From Candidatus Uhrbacteria bacterium (GTDB taxonomy: Bacteria > Patescibacteriota > Patescibacteriia > 2-12-FULL-60-25), in NCBI GenBank assembly GCA_903893445.1, contig CAITMG010000010.1:1-38758 (forward strand): a DNA stretch of 38,758 bases. The letters run 5' to 3'. Positions 4,474 through 11,227 of the stretch are shown one piece after another; the first letter of the stretch is position 1, and every line of letters begins with the position of its first letter. The translations under genes were made by a program, and so were the position numbers. The notes below the pieces were generated by a model that did no database searches, was not told the DNA's origin, and saw only the letters and a list, made by a program, of their open reading frames with translations.

Positions 4474-5166
4474 ATGCTTCGATCAAAGACGCTTCATGTC
4501 ATCCAGGCGGCGATCGGCGTTTTGTGGCTTTGTGTTATTGCGCTTTGTATTCGATGGATTGTTTTTTCTGGGATTCCATTGCGACACGTTCCGAAGATTG
4601 CTCGATCGGTCATTCAGGCGTATGGCTTCTACGGTCCGTTTTTGATTCTTGGGATGTACGCGATCCGCGGAGCCTTTTTTGTCATTCCGACAGCATTGCT
4701 CAATGTCCTTGCCGGATCCTTATATGGACCAGTTTGGGGGACGCTTCTTAATCTGACGGGGGAGATGCTGACAACGAATATTTCGTTTGGACTTGGCCGT
4801 CTGTTTGGCCGACGCGTTTTTCGTGCGCATGAGCATGGGTGGGTGAAGCGCTATGATGATGTTTTGAAACACGAAGGATTTTTAACAGTCCTCATTATGC
4901 GCTCCTTATATTTCCCGTTTGACCTCGTGAATTATGGGAGCGGGATTTCGAGCATGATGTATCGCCAGTATGTTCTTGGGACGTTTCTTGGACTCCTTGC
5001 GCCGGTCATCACATTGACGGTTCTTGGAAATGCGTTTACAAATCCTCGTGCACTCGTTGCGTTTGTCTTGCTTTCGGCAGTATCGATTGGCGCGGCTCTG
5101 CTGCTTCGGCAGTCCGCTTGGGCAAAACGACGACTCTACCCACCACATGTTCACGAAACGATTTGA
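4474..5166 (+). CDS. VTT/SNARE-associated (DedA/TVP38-like) membrane protein
   Basis: FFVIPTALLNVLAGSLYGPVWGTLLNLTGEMLTTNISFGLGRLFGR... and FPFDLVNYGSGISSMMYRQYVLGTFLG fit the TVP38/TMEM64 family. Confidence 0.8.
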   Translation: MLRSKTLHVIQAAIGVLWLCVIALCIRWIVFSGIPLRHVPKIARSVIQAYGFYGPFLILGMYAIRGAFFVIPTALLNVLAGSLYGPVWGTLLNLTGEMLTTNISFGLGRLFGRRVFRAHEHGWVKRYDDVLKHEGFLTVLIMRSLYFPFDLVNYGSGISSMMYRQYVLGTFLGLLAPVITLTVLGNAFTNPRALVAFVLLSAVSIGAALLLRQSAWAKRRLYPPHVHETI

Positions 5167-6271
5167 GAGTTCACTTTCCCATGCACGACGTGGGACGTTA
5201 ACGACTGGCCACGGCACCCTTGAGACGCCGTTTTTTATGCCGATCGCGACCAAGGGCGCGGTCAAGACGCTCTCGAGTTTTGATATCGAGCGACTCGGGA
5301 GCCCAATCTTGCTTTCCAATACGTATCACTTGTATCTCCGACCAGGTTTGGAGGTGATGCGTCATTTTGGCGGGTTGCATAAATTGATGTCCTGGGAAGG
5401 GGCGCTACTGACAGACTCTGGAGGATATCAAGTTTTCTCCTTGGCAAAGATGCGAAAGATTACGGAGGAGGGGGCGACCTTCGCTTCCCATATTGATGGG
5501 TCACGCCATTTGTTGACCCCAGAACTTTCCATGGAAATCCAACAAGCCATTGGAAGTGACATTGTGATGGTCTTGGATGAATGTACACCACCTGGATCCA
5601 CTTATGAGTATCTTCGTGATTCAATAGCTCGAACAACGCGCTGGGCAAAGCGATCGAAAGACGCGTTTGTTGCTGGTCGTTCGACATCGAATAATCCTTC
5701 GTCACAGCTTTTTGGTATTGTTCAGGGCGGTGTTGATGAAAAACTTCGTTGTGAAAGCGCGCGGGCATTAAAAGAAATTGGGTTTGATGGGTATGCGATT
5801 GGCGGGTTATCTGTGGGAGAAGCGTTTGCAGATTCGTGTCGGATTGTTGAAGCGCTGCATGAGGAGCTTCCAAAAGATGCCCCGCGCTATTTTATGGGTG
5901 GCGCAAAACCGGAAGAGATTGTGGCATACGTCAAACGTGGCGTTGATATGTTTGATTGCGTCATCCCAACACGAAATGCGCGTCATGGTTTGCTCTATCG
6001 ATTCGTTCACGATGACTTGAGTCGTCCGGATTTTTACGAAGCGATTCATGTCACAAATGAGGCGCATAAAATGTCCGATGAGCCGCTGGTTGCCTTTGAT
6101 GCAAATGATCCGATCACCGCAGAGCTCTCGCGTTATACGATGGGATATGTTCGTCACTTATTTACGGTTGAAGAAGTGCTCGCGCATCGGTTGATGACAT
6201 TGGCGAACGTGCGATTTTATCTTGAACTCATGCGACGCATTCGTGTCGCTATTGATGACGGAAAATTGTAA
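5147..6271 (+). CDS. tgt: Queuine/archaeosine-type tRNA-guanine transglycosylase
   Basis: MFTKRFESSLSHARRGTLTTGHGTLETPFFMPIATKGAVKTLSS...LLSNTYHLYLRPG...LLTDSGGYQVFSL...FDCVIPTRNARHG. Start corrected to 5147; overlaps the upstream gene by 20 bp. Confidence 0.95.
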   Translation: MFTKRFESSLSHARRGTLTTGHGTLETPFFMPIATKGAVKTLSSFDIERLGSPILLSNTYHLYLRPGLEVMRHFGGLHKLMSWEGALLTDSGGYQVFSLAKMRKITEEGATFASHIDGSRHLLTPELSMEIQQAIGSDIVMVLDECTPPGSTYEYLRDSIARTTRWAKRSKDAFVAGRSTSNNPSSQLFGIVQGGVDEKLRCESARALKEIGFDGYAIGGLSVGEAFADSCRIVEALHEELPKDAPRYFMGGAKPEEIVAYVKRGVDMFDCVIPTRNARHGLLYRFVHDDLSRPDFYEAIHVTNEAHKMSDEPLVAFDANDPITAELSRYTMGYVRHLFTVEEVLAHRLMTLANVRFYLELMRRIRVAIDDGKL

Positions 6272-6297
6272 TAAAAAATCCGACCAAGTGGTCGGAT
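6272..6297 (-). terminator. Terminator of the PD-(D/E)XK-like paralogue 1
   Basis: ATCCGACC(6278-6285)/GGTCGGAT(6290-6297) with TTTTTT on the minus strand, next to stop codons on both strands. Confidence 0.75.
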
Positions 6298-6301
6298 GTG
6301 G

Positions 6302-7207
6302 CTAGTCGAGAAAACGCGTGTATTCGATGAGGTCGTCCATGATCTGATGGAGGTGATGTCCGCCGCGGATGTCCCATGCGGGACGATCGTCGTTTCCAAC
6401 CCAGAGGATCATCGGGATGCATCGCAGTACGTGCTTTTCACTGAACCGTTTCATGTCACGGCGGATGATTTGGATCTCTTCTGTCTGTTCCTTTTCTTCC
6501 TGATCTTCGAGGAACATGAGTGTGGATGGAACGCCGACACCAGCTCGCTTGATCTGAAAGCAGAGATGGATCGGATCGGCTCGGTTGATCTTTCCGATTA
6601 GGTCGATGCGCGCGAACGAGTCGATCTTGCGCTTTGGAAGAATCGTGATGACACGGTGCTTTAAGAGTTGGTACGCCGTTCGTGCTACAGCAAACGCGCC
6701 GAGACATGCGCCGACCCATTCATCTGTCACGAGTTCGGATTGCGGGGGGAGACAGGTTGGCGTTTCTTCGCGTTCCTGATCGGACATGAGAAGGAATGCG
6801 CGGGTCAGCGCGGATTGTGATTTTCCTCCGAGAGCAATGGGTGTGTGAATGGATGTCTCGGGTCGATCTTCGACGTATCTCGTGAGTGTGGAGCTGACTC
6901 CCCAAAAGATCGCACGAAGCGTTTCAGAGAATGCGTCTATCCGTTGTGGGTCAATGAGGGACGCGAGACGTTTCTTTCCAAGCATCACCGCATGGTCAGG
7001 GGGAAGTCGTCCGCATTTTTGCGCGAAACTTTCTGCTTCCGAATAGATGAGAAAAACCTCTTCGTTTGCGTCATCGGGAAAGCTGTTTGATTGGCCGACG
7101 TCGTAGGGGAGATGTCGACCGAGGCGCGTTCGTTCTTTTGCAATCGCGACGGGTCCGTCTCGAGCTGACTCCTTGTCTCGAATCCTCAATCGTTTTTGCG
7201 TTTTCAA
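6302..7207 (-). CDS. Uncharacterised protein with PD-(D/E)XK (Mrr-like D...QxK) signature, paralogue 1
   Basis: ARIDLIGKINRADPIHLCFQIKRAG; C-terminal IPMILWVGNDDRPAWDIRG shared with the neighbouring ORF. TTG start with upstream GAGG SD. Confidence 0.6.
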   Translation of the reverse strand: MKTQKRLRIRDKESARDGPVAIAKERTRLGRHLPYDVGQSNSFPDDANEEVFLIYSEAESFAQKCGRLPPDHAVMLGKKRLASLIDPQRIDAFSETLRAIFWGVSSTLTRYVEDRPETSIHTPIALGGKSQSALTRAFLLMSDQEREETPTCLPPQSELVTDEWVGACLGAFAVARTAYQLLKHRVITILPKRKIDSFARIDLIGKINRADPIHLCFQIKRAGVGVPSTLMFLEDQEEKEQTEEIQIIRRDMKRFSEKHVLRCIPMILWVGNDDRPAWDIRGGHHLHQIMDDLIEYTRFLD

Positions 7208-7251
7208 GGTGCAGCCTCTTCGGTAAGGAATGACTGACTCTGGCGGAGATG

Positions 7252-7280
7252 TCTATAGCTTTTTTTTGAAGGTTTGTCAA
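7252..7280 (-). promoter_or_regulatory. Sigma70-type promoter for paralogue 1
   Basis: Minus strand TTGACA (7275-7280), 17-bp spacer, TATAGA (7252-7257). Confidence 0.8.
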
Positions 7281-7291
7281 TCCGCGTGGGA

Positions 7292-7318
7292 TAAAAAAAC
7301 GCACGAGGTTATCGTGCG
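7292..7318 (-). terminator. Terminator of paralogue 2
   Basis: CGCACGA(7300-7306)/TCGTGCG(7312-7318), TTTTTTT on the minus strand; stem overlaps the 3' end of the ORF. Confidence 0.75.
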
Positions 7319-8160
7319 GGAGAGGTGCGGATTTCTTCGAGGACCGATCGGATTCCGGCAATGAGGGATGGAGGAGGCTTGATATCCCACGTCTCATTTC
7401 CGTGGCCGACCACGATCACCACCGGGACACAGGGGCGTTGCTGTGAATGTGTGAACTCCTCAAAGTGTTTGAGGATGGAGTGGATGATCGTTTGGCAGCC
7501 GCGATCTTGATTTGACCACCGCGCGATGCGACAAAAAGGATGAATAGCTCCTTTGTTCTTTATCTGGATACAGAGGAGATGTTGCGCGGCGTCTTCGATT
7601 GGCGCTAGAAAATCGATGTTGAAGCTAATGTCGACGTTTGCGGTTGCGTGGTGCGGATAGATCTCAAACTCATGAAACCCCCTCGCAACACGAGCGCTGG
7701 CGATGGCACCAAAATAGCAGCTTCGCCAATGACGTCGTACCTGTGGTTCGTCTTGGCTAAAAAGCTGAAACAGGAGATTTCGATCTCGATCGGGGACACC
7801 CAGGAGTCCGCTGAGCAGATGGCGCTGAATCCGTGCGCCAGGAACGGCGATTTTCGCGATGCCGTCTTTGATGCCGACGCGGTCATCGATCTGCCAATAC
7901 AGCGACCAGACGCCGTACCAGAATGCGGCTCGACCAAGCTCATTGATCGGCGAGATATCATCTTCATCCTTCCTTGGAAGGACCGTATCGAGGTACTCAT
8001 CCGCACTCCGCTTAATGACCTCCATCGTCGCATCTTGCCACTTTGCGGCACAGCCGGCTCCCATGTTGGCGAGTTCGGCAAACGTATGATAGGCGTTTGC
8101 TGGGAGGGGTTCCTCGTCGTGACTCTTTCGGATCTCATAGCCAAGATCTGATTTTTTCAT
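7309..8160 (-). CDS. Uncharacterised protein with PD-(D/E)XK (Mrr-like D...QxK) signature, paralogue 2
   Basis: FNIDFLAPIEDAAQHLLCIQIKNKG; VPVVIVVGHGNETWDIKPP; aligns with paralogue 1 across W....GA.A.AR...ID..HL..QIK..G. Confidence 0.6.
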   Translation of the reverse strand: MKKSDLGYEIRKSHDEEPLPANAYHTFAELANMGAGCAAKWQDATMEVIKRSADEYLDTVLPRKDEDDISPINELGRAAFWYGVWSLYWQIDDRVGIKDGIAKIAVPGARIQRHLLSGLLGVPDRDRNLLFQLFSQDEPQVRRHWRSCYFGAIASARVARGFHEFEIYPHHATANVDISFNIDFLAPIEDAAQHLLCIQIKNKGAIHPFCRIARWSNQDRGCQTIIHSILKHFEEFTHSQQRPCVPVVIVVGHGNETWDIKPPPSLIAGIRSVLEEIRTSPAR

Positions 8161-8275
8161 TGTGAATGTCCTTTTGACGGCATGGTTTTGCTGTCGCGAA
8201 TCAATCTAGCAGACACGTCGGGGCTGTCAATTGAGGGCTTTGTCAATCTACTGCGTCTTCGATACAGTAGGTGGC

Positions 8276-11227
8276 ATGTCAGACCTTCTTGAGGAGTTGA
8301 ATGATGCCCAGCGCAAGGCCGTTACACACGAGACCGGCCCGTTATTGATTGTCGCTGGTGCCGGCACCGGAAAGACGACCGTTTTGACGCGACGGTATGC
8401 GTATCTATTGGAGACGAAGAAGTTGCATACGGAGCAGATTTTAGCGCTCACATTTACCGAGAAGGCGGCAGGGGAGATGGAGGATCGTGTTCTTCAGCTT
8501 CTCCCGAATGGAACCTATGATTTTTGGATTTCGACGTTTCATGGATTTTGTCAGCGTGTGCTAGAGAAGTATGCCTTTGAGATTGGATTGCCGAATCAGT
8601 TTCGCGTCGTCAATGAAACGGATGCGTGGTTATTATTAAAACGACGATTCGAGGAGTTGCCGCTTGATCATTATCGACCTCTTGGAAACCCGTTGAAATT
8701 TCTTGGTGGTTTACTGCGTCATTTTTCTCGCGCGAAGGATGAAGGCGTGACGCCAGAGTCGTATCTCGCGTTTGCGGAAACTGCTGTATTGGATGCAGAC
8801 GCCGATCCGAGTATGGAGCGGTCGCGTCTCAAGGAGATTGCGGATTGTTTTTTCGCCTACCGCCGGATTTTGCGGGAGGAGGGCGCGTTGGATTTTGGTG
8901 ACTTGATTACGGAAACACTCAGACTCCTTCGAGAGCGTCCACGCGTCTTAAAGGAGCTCCAGGATCAATTTGCATATGTGTTTGTTGATGAGTTTCAAGA
9001 TACCAATTGGGCGCAGTATGAGTTGATTAAGATGCTGGCGGCACCAAAGAATAACGTCACGGTTGTGGGAGATGATGATCAAGCGATTTATAAGTTTCGT
9101 GGAGCATCGTTGGCAAATATTTTGCAGTTTCGTGATGACTACCCAGATGCCGCAACGGTTGCACTGACCCAAAATTATCGGTCGCATCAGGAGATTTTGG
9201 ATACGTCATACGGATTCATTCAAAAGAATGATCCGAATCGCTTGGAGGTTCGTTTGGCGAGCACGGGACTCTCAAAGCGCCTTGTGAGCGCGACGGGGCC
9301 GGGAGGCGTTGTCTCGTCGTTTTGGTATAAGAGCCTGGAGGATGAGGCTGAGGCGGTTGCGATTCGTATTCGTGGGATGAAGGAGGAGAATCCGGAGCTG
9401 TCTTGGAACGATTTTGCGATCCTTTCGCGTTCGAATGATGGCTGTGAGCCGTTTGTGTTTGCGTTGGAGCGGCATGGGATTCCATTTCGATTTATTGCCA
9501 TGCGCGGGTTATACGCAAAGCCGGCGATTGTGGATTTAACAGCGATTTTTTCCTTGCTTGATGGGTATCGTGAATCTTCCGCCGTGTGGCGCGCCATGAC
9601 CGCGCCGTGCTTTTCCTTTTCACCGGGTGAGATGGCGGAGTTTCTCCATTTTGCGGCTCGTAAGACGGGTGGAACGCTATGGGATGCGGTGAGTCGTGCG
9701 CGAGAGATTCCGGGAATGATTCCAGAGGCGGTCCAAAGAACGGAATCGTTTGTGACGGTGATTCAACGGTTGTCGGAAACAGCGCATCGGGAACGTCCAT
9801 TGCGATTATTGCAATTGATTTTGGAAAAGACATCGTATCTCTCAGAGATTTTGAAGCGACCAGAACGAGAAAAGTTGGAGATGCTTGGGCATTTGAACGC
9901 ATTCGCGAATCGTATTAAGCGATATGAGTCTTCGACCCTTGCGCCAACGGTGAAAGGGTTTATGGAAGAGTTTCGGATGGAGATTGATAGCGGCGAAGAA
10001 GGTGCCTTGATGGATGAAGCGGACGCCGGACCTGAGGCCGTGAGCGTGATGACGGTGCACGCCTCAAAAGGGTTGGAGTTTTCCCATGTTTTTATTGTGT
10101 CGTTGGTGGATCAGCGCTTTCCGACGCGTGTACGTGGGGAGTCGATTCCGTTGCCGGACGGTTTGGTGAATGAGCGCCTTCCAGAGGGCGATGCGCATAT
10201 TGAGGAAGAGCGTCGGTTGTTTTATGTCGCCATGACGCGCGCGAAAAAATCGCTCTTCCTGACCGGTGCAGAGTCATACGGCGGAACGCGAAAAAAGAAA
10301 CCATCGGTCTTTTTGTCGGAAGCCGGTGTCGCTTCTGCCATGAAAGAGGTGAACTCTCAAGCCGAGAAGATGTTGTTGATTCCAACGATGACGGATCGAG
10401 AGTCTGCTGAGCGCGAGGTCTTTCCACTCAAGCGACGTTTTTCGTTTACGCAGTTAGCGGCGTTTCAAAAGTGTCCGTTGCAATACAAATTTTCCCATGT
10501 CTATCGGATTCCGATTTTGGGGAGTTATCAAAAAAGCTACGGGCAATCGATCCATTTATCGTTTCACGATATTTTGTCGTTGCATCTTGAACGCGGACAG
10601 GTTCAACAATCGAGTCTCTTTGGTGGAGCGGAAAAGGGGAGTGATGAGATTCGTGCGGCGTTGTTTCGAGTAACGTTGAACGAGGCGTTGGCGATTTTTG
10701 AAACTCGATGGATTGATGAGTGGTATCCAACGCGAGCGATTCACGATGAGCATAAGCAACAAGGACGCGATGCGGTGCGTCGCATGCATGAAGAGTGGTC
10801 TGTTGCTCCGCCGGACGTGGCGTTTTTGGAACAGCCGTTTGATTGGCGGATCGGCGAACATTCCATTAAAGGGTCCGTTGATCGCATTGATCGATTGGAG
10901 TCTGGTGGTCATGTGATCTTTGATTATAAGACGGGTGAAGCAAAGACCTCAGAGGATTTGGAGCGCGATCAAAAGGAGCAGTTGTGGATTTACCAGATCG
11001 CGATGGAAGGTCGTGGATTGGATATTCGTCGTTTAGCGTATGTATATCTGCGTACGGGTGGGATCGCGGATGTGCCGATTCTTCAGGGAGAAAAACGAGA
11101 TGCGTTTCGCGAAGAGCTTAAAGGACGAATGGACGCAATTCTTGCCTCACGCTTTCCACCAGCGGCGTCGTCGTTTGTGTGCCGATACTGTGACTTTCGG
11201 AATATCTGTGAGTTTCGCAAATTATGA
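8276..11227 (+). CDS. UvrD/PcrA-family helicase fused to a C-terminal Cas4/AddB-like (PDDEXK_1) nuclease domain
   Basis: LLIVAGAGTGKTTVLTRR (Walker A), VFVDEFQDTN (Walker B), VVGDDDQAIYKFRGA, MTVHASKGLEFSHVF; C-terminal GSVDRIDRLESGGHVIFDYKTGE plus Cys of QKCPLQY and CRYCDFRNIC. Start corrected to MSDLLEELNDAQ. Confidence 0.9.
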   Translation: MSDLLEELNDAQRKAVTHETGPLLIVAGAGTGKTTVLTRRYAYLLETKKLHTEQILALTFTEKAAGEMEDRVLQLLPNGTYDFWISTFHGFCQRVLEKYAFEIGLPNQFRVVNETDAWLLLKRRFEELPLDHYRPLGNPLKFLGGLLRHFSRAKDEGVTPESYLAFAETAVLDADADPSMERSRLKEIADCFFAYRRILREEGALDFGDLITETLRLLRERPRVLKELQDQFAYVFVDEFQDTNWAQYELIKMLAAPKNNVTVVGDDDQAIYKFRGASLANILQFRDDYPDAATVALTQNYRSHQEILDTSYGFIQKNDPNRLEVRLASTGLSKRLVSATGPGGVVSSFWYKSLEDEAEAVAIRIRGMKEENPELSWNDFAILSRSNDGCEPFVFALERHGIPFRFIAMRGLYAKPAIVDLTAIFSLLDGYRESSAVWRAMTAPCFSFSPGEMAEFLHFAARKTGGTLWDAVSRAREIPGMIPEAVQRTESFVTVIQRLSETAHRERPLRLLQLILEKTSYLSEILKRPEREKLEMLGHLNAFANRIKRYESSTLAPTVKGFMEEFRMEIDSGEEGALMDEADAGPEAVSVMTVHASKGLEFSHVFIVSLVDQRFPTRVRGESIPLPDGLVNERLPEGDAHIEEERRLFYVAMTRAKKSLFLTGAESYGGTRKKKPSVFLSEAGVASAMKEVNSQAEKMLLIPTMTDRESAEREVFPLKRRFSFTQLAAFQKCPLQYKFSHVYRIPILGSYQKSYGQSIHLSFHDILSLHLERGQVQQSSLFGGAEKGSDEIRAALFRVTLNEALAIFETRWIDEWYPTRAIHDEHKQQGRDAVRRMHEEWSVAPPDVAFLEQPFDWRIGEHSIKGSVDRIDRLESGGHVIFDYKTGEAKTSEDLERDQKEQLWIYQIAMEGRGLDIRRLAYVYLRTGGIADVPILQGEKRDAFREELKGRMDAILASRFPPAASSFVCRYCDFRNICEFRKL

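Follow-up and report, generated by a model that had tools for sequence, protein, structure and literature searches.

The DREN nuclease of the SPARDA system has an active site made up of D41, Q60 and K62; the substitutions D41A and Q60A abolish cleavage, and K62A impairs it (PMC12205087). Patescibacteria are reported mostly to have no CRISPR and to depend on nonspecific defence, for example restriction-modification (PMC12455944). Many of their genes are unannotated, and most of these bacteria are reported to be without many classical defences as well.

We describe here a gene pair from a Candidatus Uhrbacteria bacterium (assembly GCA_903893445.1, contig CAITMG010000010.1), found in a stretch of 38,758 nucleotides, the whole of which we call the window. 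The pair belongs to a previously unannotated and fast-changing family of a known kind, namely PD-(D/E)XK-fold proteins with a conserved D...QxK site. The reading that we favour, at roughly an even chance, is that these proteins are stand-alone, Mg-dependent DNases directed against foreign DNA, acting as orphan accessory nucleases.

A tandem gene pair and its family

Both genes lie on the minus strand, between tgt (5024-6271, plus strand) and a gene for a UvrD helicase with a PDDEXK_1 domain (8231-11227, plus strand). Paralogue A (6302..7207) encodes 301 amino acids and paralogue B (7309..8160) encodes 283, the latter from an ATG start. At its full length the reading frame of A requires a TTG start, the next in-frame methionine being residue 75, near the conserved region. 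In each protein an N-terminal helical region (residues 23-119 in B) is followed by a C-terminal predicted PD-(D/E)XK-fold domain, which occupies residues 158-301 of A (6302..6736, minus strand; D196, D202, Q218, K220) and approximately residues 139-283 of B (7309..7746, minus strand; D177, D183, Q199, K201). Sequence and conservation place the predicted catalytic stretch at 6548..6604 in A (minus strand; D202 at 6602-6604, Q218-I-K220 at 6548-6556) and at 7558..7614 in B (minus strand; D183 at 7612-7614, Q199-I-K201 at 7558-7566).

The original prediction, that these are two tandem, divergent paralogues with common motifs, was borne out: pairwise comparison gave 24% identity over 198 amino acids (E=9e-13), and the two proteins have in common W....GA.A.AR.A, ID, QIK and a C-terminal (V/I)P..I.VG...WDI block. 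The WDI ending, which had been put forward as part of the signature, is indeed present in both but is confined to the pair in the window; it reads PWAI in the relative G009 and is absent from the other homologues. Each gene has, as had been proposed, its own terminator on the minus strand, at 6278..6297 after A (ATCCGACC-ACTT-GGTCGGAT, then a T run) and at 7300..7318 after B (CGCACGA-TAACC-TCGTGCG, then TTTTTTT). The promoter-like site TTGACA-N17-TATAGA upstream of A (7252..7280, minus strand) was read directly from the sequence, and is not listed by a scan rule that demands T at the last position; the scan does list a site before B, TTGACA-N16-TAGATT (8203..8230, minus strand; 10/12 matches). 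Each gene would thus be expressed from its own promoter.

Neither protein, singly or as a family, matched Pfam, PHROGs, NCBIfam, PADLOC or PDB sequences at threshold, in keeping with the earlier suggestion of a new family, and a narrow literature search found no paper on nucleases in Uhrbacteria. Single-sequence queries gave the first relatives, in genomes G009 and G019, and a profile made from these reached G040 and G011. Profile searches brought the family to about 60 proteins, mostly from Candidatus Uhrbacteria and their class. It is present in 23 of 381 genomes of the class, and in 31 of 43 genomes (72%) of one family of that class, labelled f46; weak members occur elsewhere in the phylum (16 of 380 genomes, class included). 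No relatives were found in the phages, plasmids and viral contigs searched. A match in G065 proved to be a YchF-like GTPase and due to chance, and TPR-like PDB matches at E=0.006 were repeat-protein artefacts. A HARE-HTH plus PDDEXK_5-like protein from another Patescibacteria lineage (L091:1195-1962) also matches the family profile weakly.

Predicted fold and active site

The PD-(D/E)XK superfamily is defined by an alpha-beta-beta-beta-alpha-beta core, with a conserved D on beta-2 and (D/E/Q/S)xK on beta-3. AlphaFold models of both paralogues have this core and this placement, D lying where the second strand begins and QxK on the third strand. Full-length B (29 alignment rows) was modelled with pLDDT 87.5 and pTM 0.88, and the C-terminal domain of A (57 rows) with pLDDT 94.6 and pTM 0.88. 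The A domain consists of a helix (2-26), strands 30-32, 46-50, 56-64 and 72-75, a helix (86-101), a strand (106-113) and a final helix (127-142), giving the topology a1-b1-b2-b3-(b4)-a-b-a.

Structural searches with the A domain agree with this assignment. Twelve of the best 15 Foldseek matches are proteins that we take, from established knowledge of them, to be PD-(D/E)XK nucleases. The best is SPARDA (9qcc, E 0.046, prob 0.90); the list also holds Archaeoglobus Hjc (2wiw, 2wcw and 2wj0), MspJI, I-Ssp6803I (2ost; rmsd 1.3 A over 55 residues, 22% identity) and R2 proteins, and the probabilities for SPARDA, Hjc and I-Ssp6803I are 0.84-0.93. All the nuclease matches have E>0.04, none falling below E=0.001, with TM-scores of 0.3-0.5, so the fold claim rests on many agreeing matches together with topology and motif. 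The whole protein searched against the PDB and viral models returned only helical noise, with nothing significant.

Weak profile matches to Hjc, Mrr_cat, PDDEXK_5 and DUF4365 were in register with the motif. By hhalign, PDDEXK_5 gave P=6e-4 (probability 12.4%) and one Mrr_cat subgroup P=9e-4 (9.5%), absolute probabilities that are low; the 21 controls, shuffled or reversed, stayed at or below 0.2%. Two other, divergent Mrr_cat subgroups, compared profile to profile with conditioning on the motif, gave nothing. Two confident models, the structural matches, the in-register profile matches and a near-invariant D and K thus uphold the core that had been predicted, and we regard it as very probable, from the models, that A and B have the PD-(D/E)XK fold.

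The D...QxK signature is not a chance resemblance. The first five homologues, which were gathered before profile selection, all have both D's, the Q and the K. Among 63 homologues, in B numbering, D183 is conserved in 62 (98%), K201 in 61 (97%) and the upstream D177 in 60 (95%); these are the three most conserved of 218 aligned columns, followed by G151 (92%). These percentages may be inflated, because a profile search preferentially picks up members in which the columns are conserved; the five-member comparison is free of most of this bias. The expectation that D, Q and K would all be kept held for D and K, but the residue before x-K varies, being Q in 42 homologues, S in 17, D in 2 and N in 2. 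Neither of the outcomes that the original prediction had named as refuting it, a model lacking the core or a motif not kept in homologues, came about.

Many members of the superfamily carry a glutamate in alpha-1. At this position most close members of our family have V or A (E in 6/50), whereas E is found in 6/13 distant members, giving G-x-x-A-E as in Hjc. The family site thus looks derived from a canonical one.

How far do these changes reach into function? The proteins might have kept a nuclease fold but no longer cut, serving in DNA binding or as structural components, like some PD-(D/E)XK relatives. The frequent loss of the alpha-1 Glu, the drift of QxK to SxK or NxK, and two copies in which K has become V or E would suit such a role. 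We nevertheless think it distinctly unlikely, since no columns are more conserved than those of D and K, and a Q at the same position is catalytic in DREN (PMC12205087). We instead consider A and B likely to be catalytically active. Their D, Q and K come in the same order and on the same strands as in DREN, which would make metal-dependent phosphodiester cleavage the most likely chemistry. The C-terminal domain would supply the active site, formed by the I-D motif Asp, where beta-2 begins, and by Q-x-K on beta-3, and this predicted site would hold Mg2+ and cut a phosphodiester bond, as the DREN site does. The helical region at the N-terminus probably has a part in oligomerisation or in recognising the target.

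The two exceptional copies are both tandem partners. In G365 one copy reads QIV (L024:591-1457) and has lost the upstream D too, beside an intact QIK copy; in G373 one reads QIE (L036:316-1206) beside a QVK copy. In the family tree, tandem pairs arise repeatedly, with sister copies in G354 and G373 and an older pair in g197, and the window pair is joined by G009; long branches leave the deep joins of this tree unsure. Because duplication yields pairs in which one member has a full site and the other has possibly lost it, the paralogues could be asymmetric heteromeric partners, one cutting and one sensing, that form a main innate DNA defence of the genome-reduced Uhrbacteria. We hold this to be a speculative and improbable extension of the nuclease reading.

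Evolution, chromosomal slots and neighbours

The family genes are real and under purifying selection, with dN/dS of 0.11-0.28 in nine close pairs, ratios that are rough, dS being >1 in most; values so far below 1 dispose of diversifying selection. The family nonetheless diverges far faster than neighbouring genes: A and the protein in the same slot of G009 are 29% identical, compared with 59% for tgt and 62% for UvrD between the same genomes.

The genes sit at fixed chromosomal slots. In f46, one clade (the SxK-type branch) lies between leuS and gdhA and runs opposite to both (loci L108, L109, L111 and L235-L237), and in f46 genomes without a gene at this slot gdhA and leuS abut, 12 bases apart in G186, a clean absence. 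A second group has as neighbours a small hydrolase and a surface protein with a lamin-tail domain, identities that we assigned by reading the sequences. The tgt-UvrD junction (L138-L166) is empty in some other Uhrbacteria, with gaps of 10-88 bases, and in others holds unrelated genes. Since slots are filled or empty according to genome, the family genes are accessory: each stands as an orphan single-gene unit, acquired in some genomes and lost in others at fixed positions. The occupants of this variable junction include, in some genomes, EndoIII-like glycosylases or apparently carbonic-anhydrase-like proteins, as named by eye.

This behaviour bears on a proposal that at first looked strong, that the nuclease acts on DNA imported through natural competence, degrading or processing it so that nucleotides can be salvaged or recombination can follow. 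ComEC is present in all 43 f46 genomes, and in about 15 genomes the S-type clade is found 3-11 kb from comEC. The gene order comEC-leuS-gdhA-trxB, however, exists without the family gene in G186, G390 and G275, as does comEC-leuS-trxB in G286 and G326, so the proximity is incidental and explained by the slot. ComEC also occurs in genomes that do not have the family, and the Q-type copies and the window pair are located elsewhere. The processing of incoming DNA, one of the roles offered by the original prediction, therefore loses its main support, and we now rate a competence function as improbable.

Another of those roles was repair beside the UvrD-nuclease. In its broader form, this explanation accepts the fold and the activity and assigns them to resident DNA metabolism (repair, recombination, or junction or flap cleavage) rather than to defence. 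It gains from the weak resemblance to archaeal Hjc in sequence and in fold, from purifying selection, from the near-core presence at a fixed slot in f46, and from the UvrD fusion that adjoins the family gene in G000, the window's own genome, and in G009. That adjacency, however, is retained in this one relative only and, with slot content varying as it does, a UvrD partnership falls away. With RuvC in 22 of the 23 genomes that carry the family, junction resolution is already provided for, and identity as a junction resolvase can be rejected. The family is moreover absent from most genomes of the class and diverges far faster than its neighbours. We judge a resident role unlikely, though the likeliest of the alternatives. 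The window's own assembly, for its part, has two RuvC matches (G000:C21:12887-13327 and G000:C90:31458-31850), compared with a single copy in relatives, reflecting duplication or contamination.

The proteins might alternatively serve as an effector domain within a system that is guided or made of several proteins, as SPARDA is, or as half of a Gabija-like pair with the adjacent UvrD. The first idea draws on the best Foldseek match, and the second on the scores of the neighbouring UvrD against GajB models. The Pfam Piwi domain, however, is absent from all 23 family-bearing genomes, although a very divergent short pAgo could escape this search. The GajB matches are those of a generic UvrD, the UvrD-PDDEXK fusion occurs widely among Patescibacteria that do not carry the family gene, and the ten window neighbours scanned gave no match of GajA type. 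The missing Piwi partner and the independent occurrence of the fusion largely refute an effector of either type, which we consider extremely unlikely.

Proposed stand-alone nucleases and known systems

We favour an orphan DNase acting against foreign DNA because the comEC link is incidental, RuvC is present, Piwi is absent, the neighbours are housekeeping genes and Patescibacteria are reported mostly to be without CRISPR and to rely on nonspecific defence. The accessory, fixed-slot distribution and the fast divergence with repeated duplications also speak for it. The most likely job of such an enzyme would be to cut foreign or unusual DNA, as an orphan restriction- or defence-type nuclease set beside housekeeping genes; both DNA as the substrate and the role in defence are what we infer from this combination. 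Two findings count against defence. The neighbours, whether read or scanned, are housekeeping genes that give no indication of it, with no methyltransferase or Argonaute seen among them. And the f46 gene is near-core (31/43) and passed on vertically at its fixed slot, as would befit a resident function no less than defence. If our reading is correct, the family is a candidate route by which these tiny bacteria handle foreign DNA, one that is missed by Pfam, NCBIfam, PHROGs and PADLOC.

How do the proteins compare with described nucleases? The original prediction had called them Mrr-type. They do have the D...QxK layout of Mrr_cat and of MspJI, a type IV, modification-dependent restriction enzyme, and MspJI is among the fold matches; but no member passes the curated Pfam cut-off for Mrr_cat (PF04471), the best being E=0.08 for one protein, so the layout stands and the membership does not. 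The window's genome also has a separate, genuine Mrr_cat protein that does match Pfam (G000:C1:10460-10792, L123; DGGIDIE...VVQCKK), with a zinc-ribbon-like tail. For type II restriction-modification, no methyltransferase was found among the window neighbours scanned, and the neighbours at other loci, mostly read by eye, look like housekeeping genes.

Archaeal Hjc aligns in register through a weak profile match, GA..(E)..DL..(E/Q)VK. It has ExK where our proteins have QxK, its profile scores are only E=0.51/0.3, and the carriers already have RuvC. I-Ssp6803I, of PDDEXK_5 (PF11645), is a local fold match; the family differs in its extra N-terminal helical region and in not being seen in an intron, and neither A, B, the family nor the rest of the window's own genome gave a match above the curated cut-off.

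SPARDA DREN differs in its setting, with no APAZ domain recognised in our family and no Argonaute in the carrier genomes, and in our family the helical region is N-terminal and the nuclease domain C-terminal. The two nevertheless have in common the PD-(D/E)XK fold, with D on beta-2 and both Q and K on beta-3. Overall, these comparisons add to the PD-(D/E)XK superfamily a D...Q/S/D-x-K family with recurrent tandem copies.
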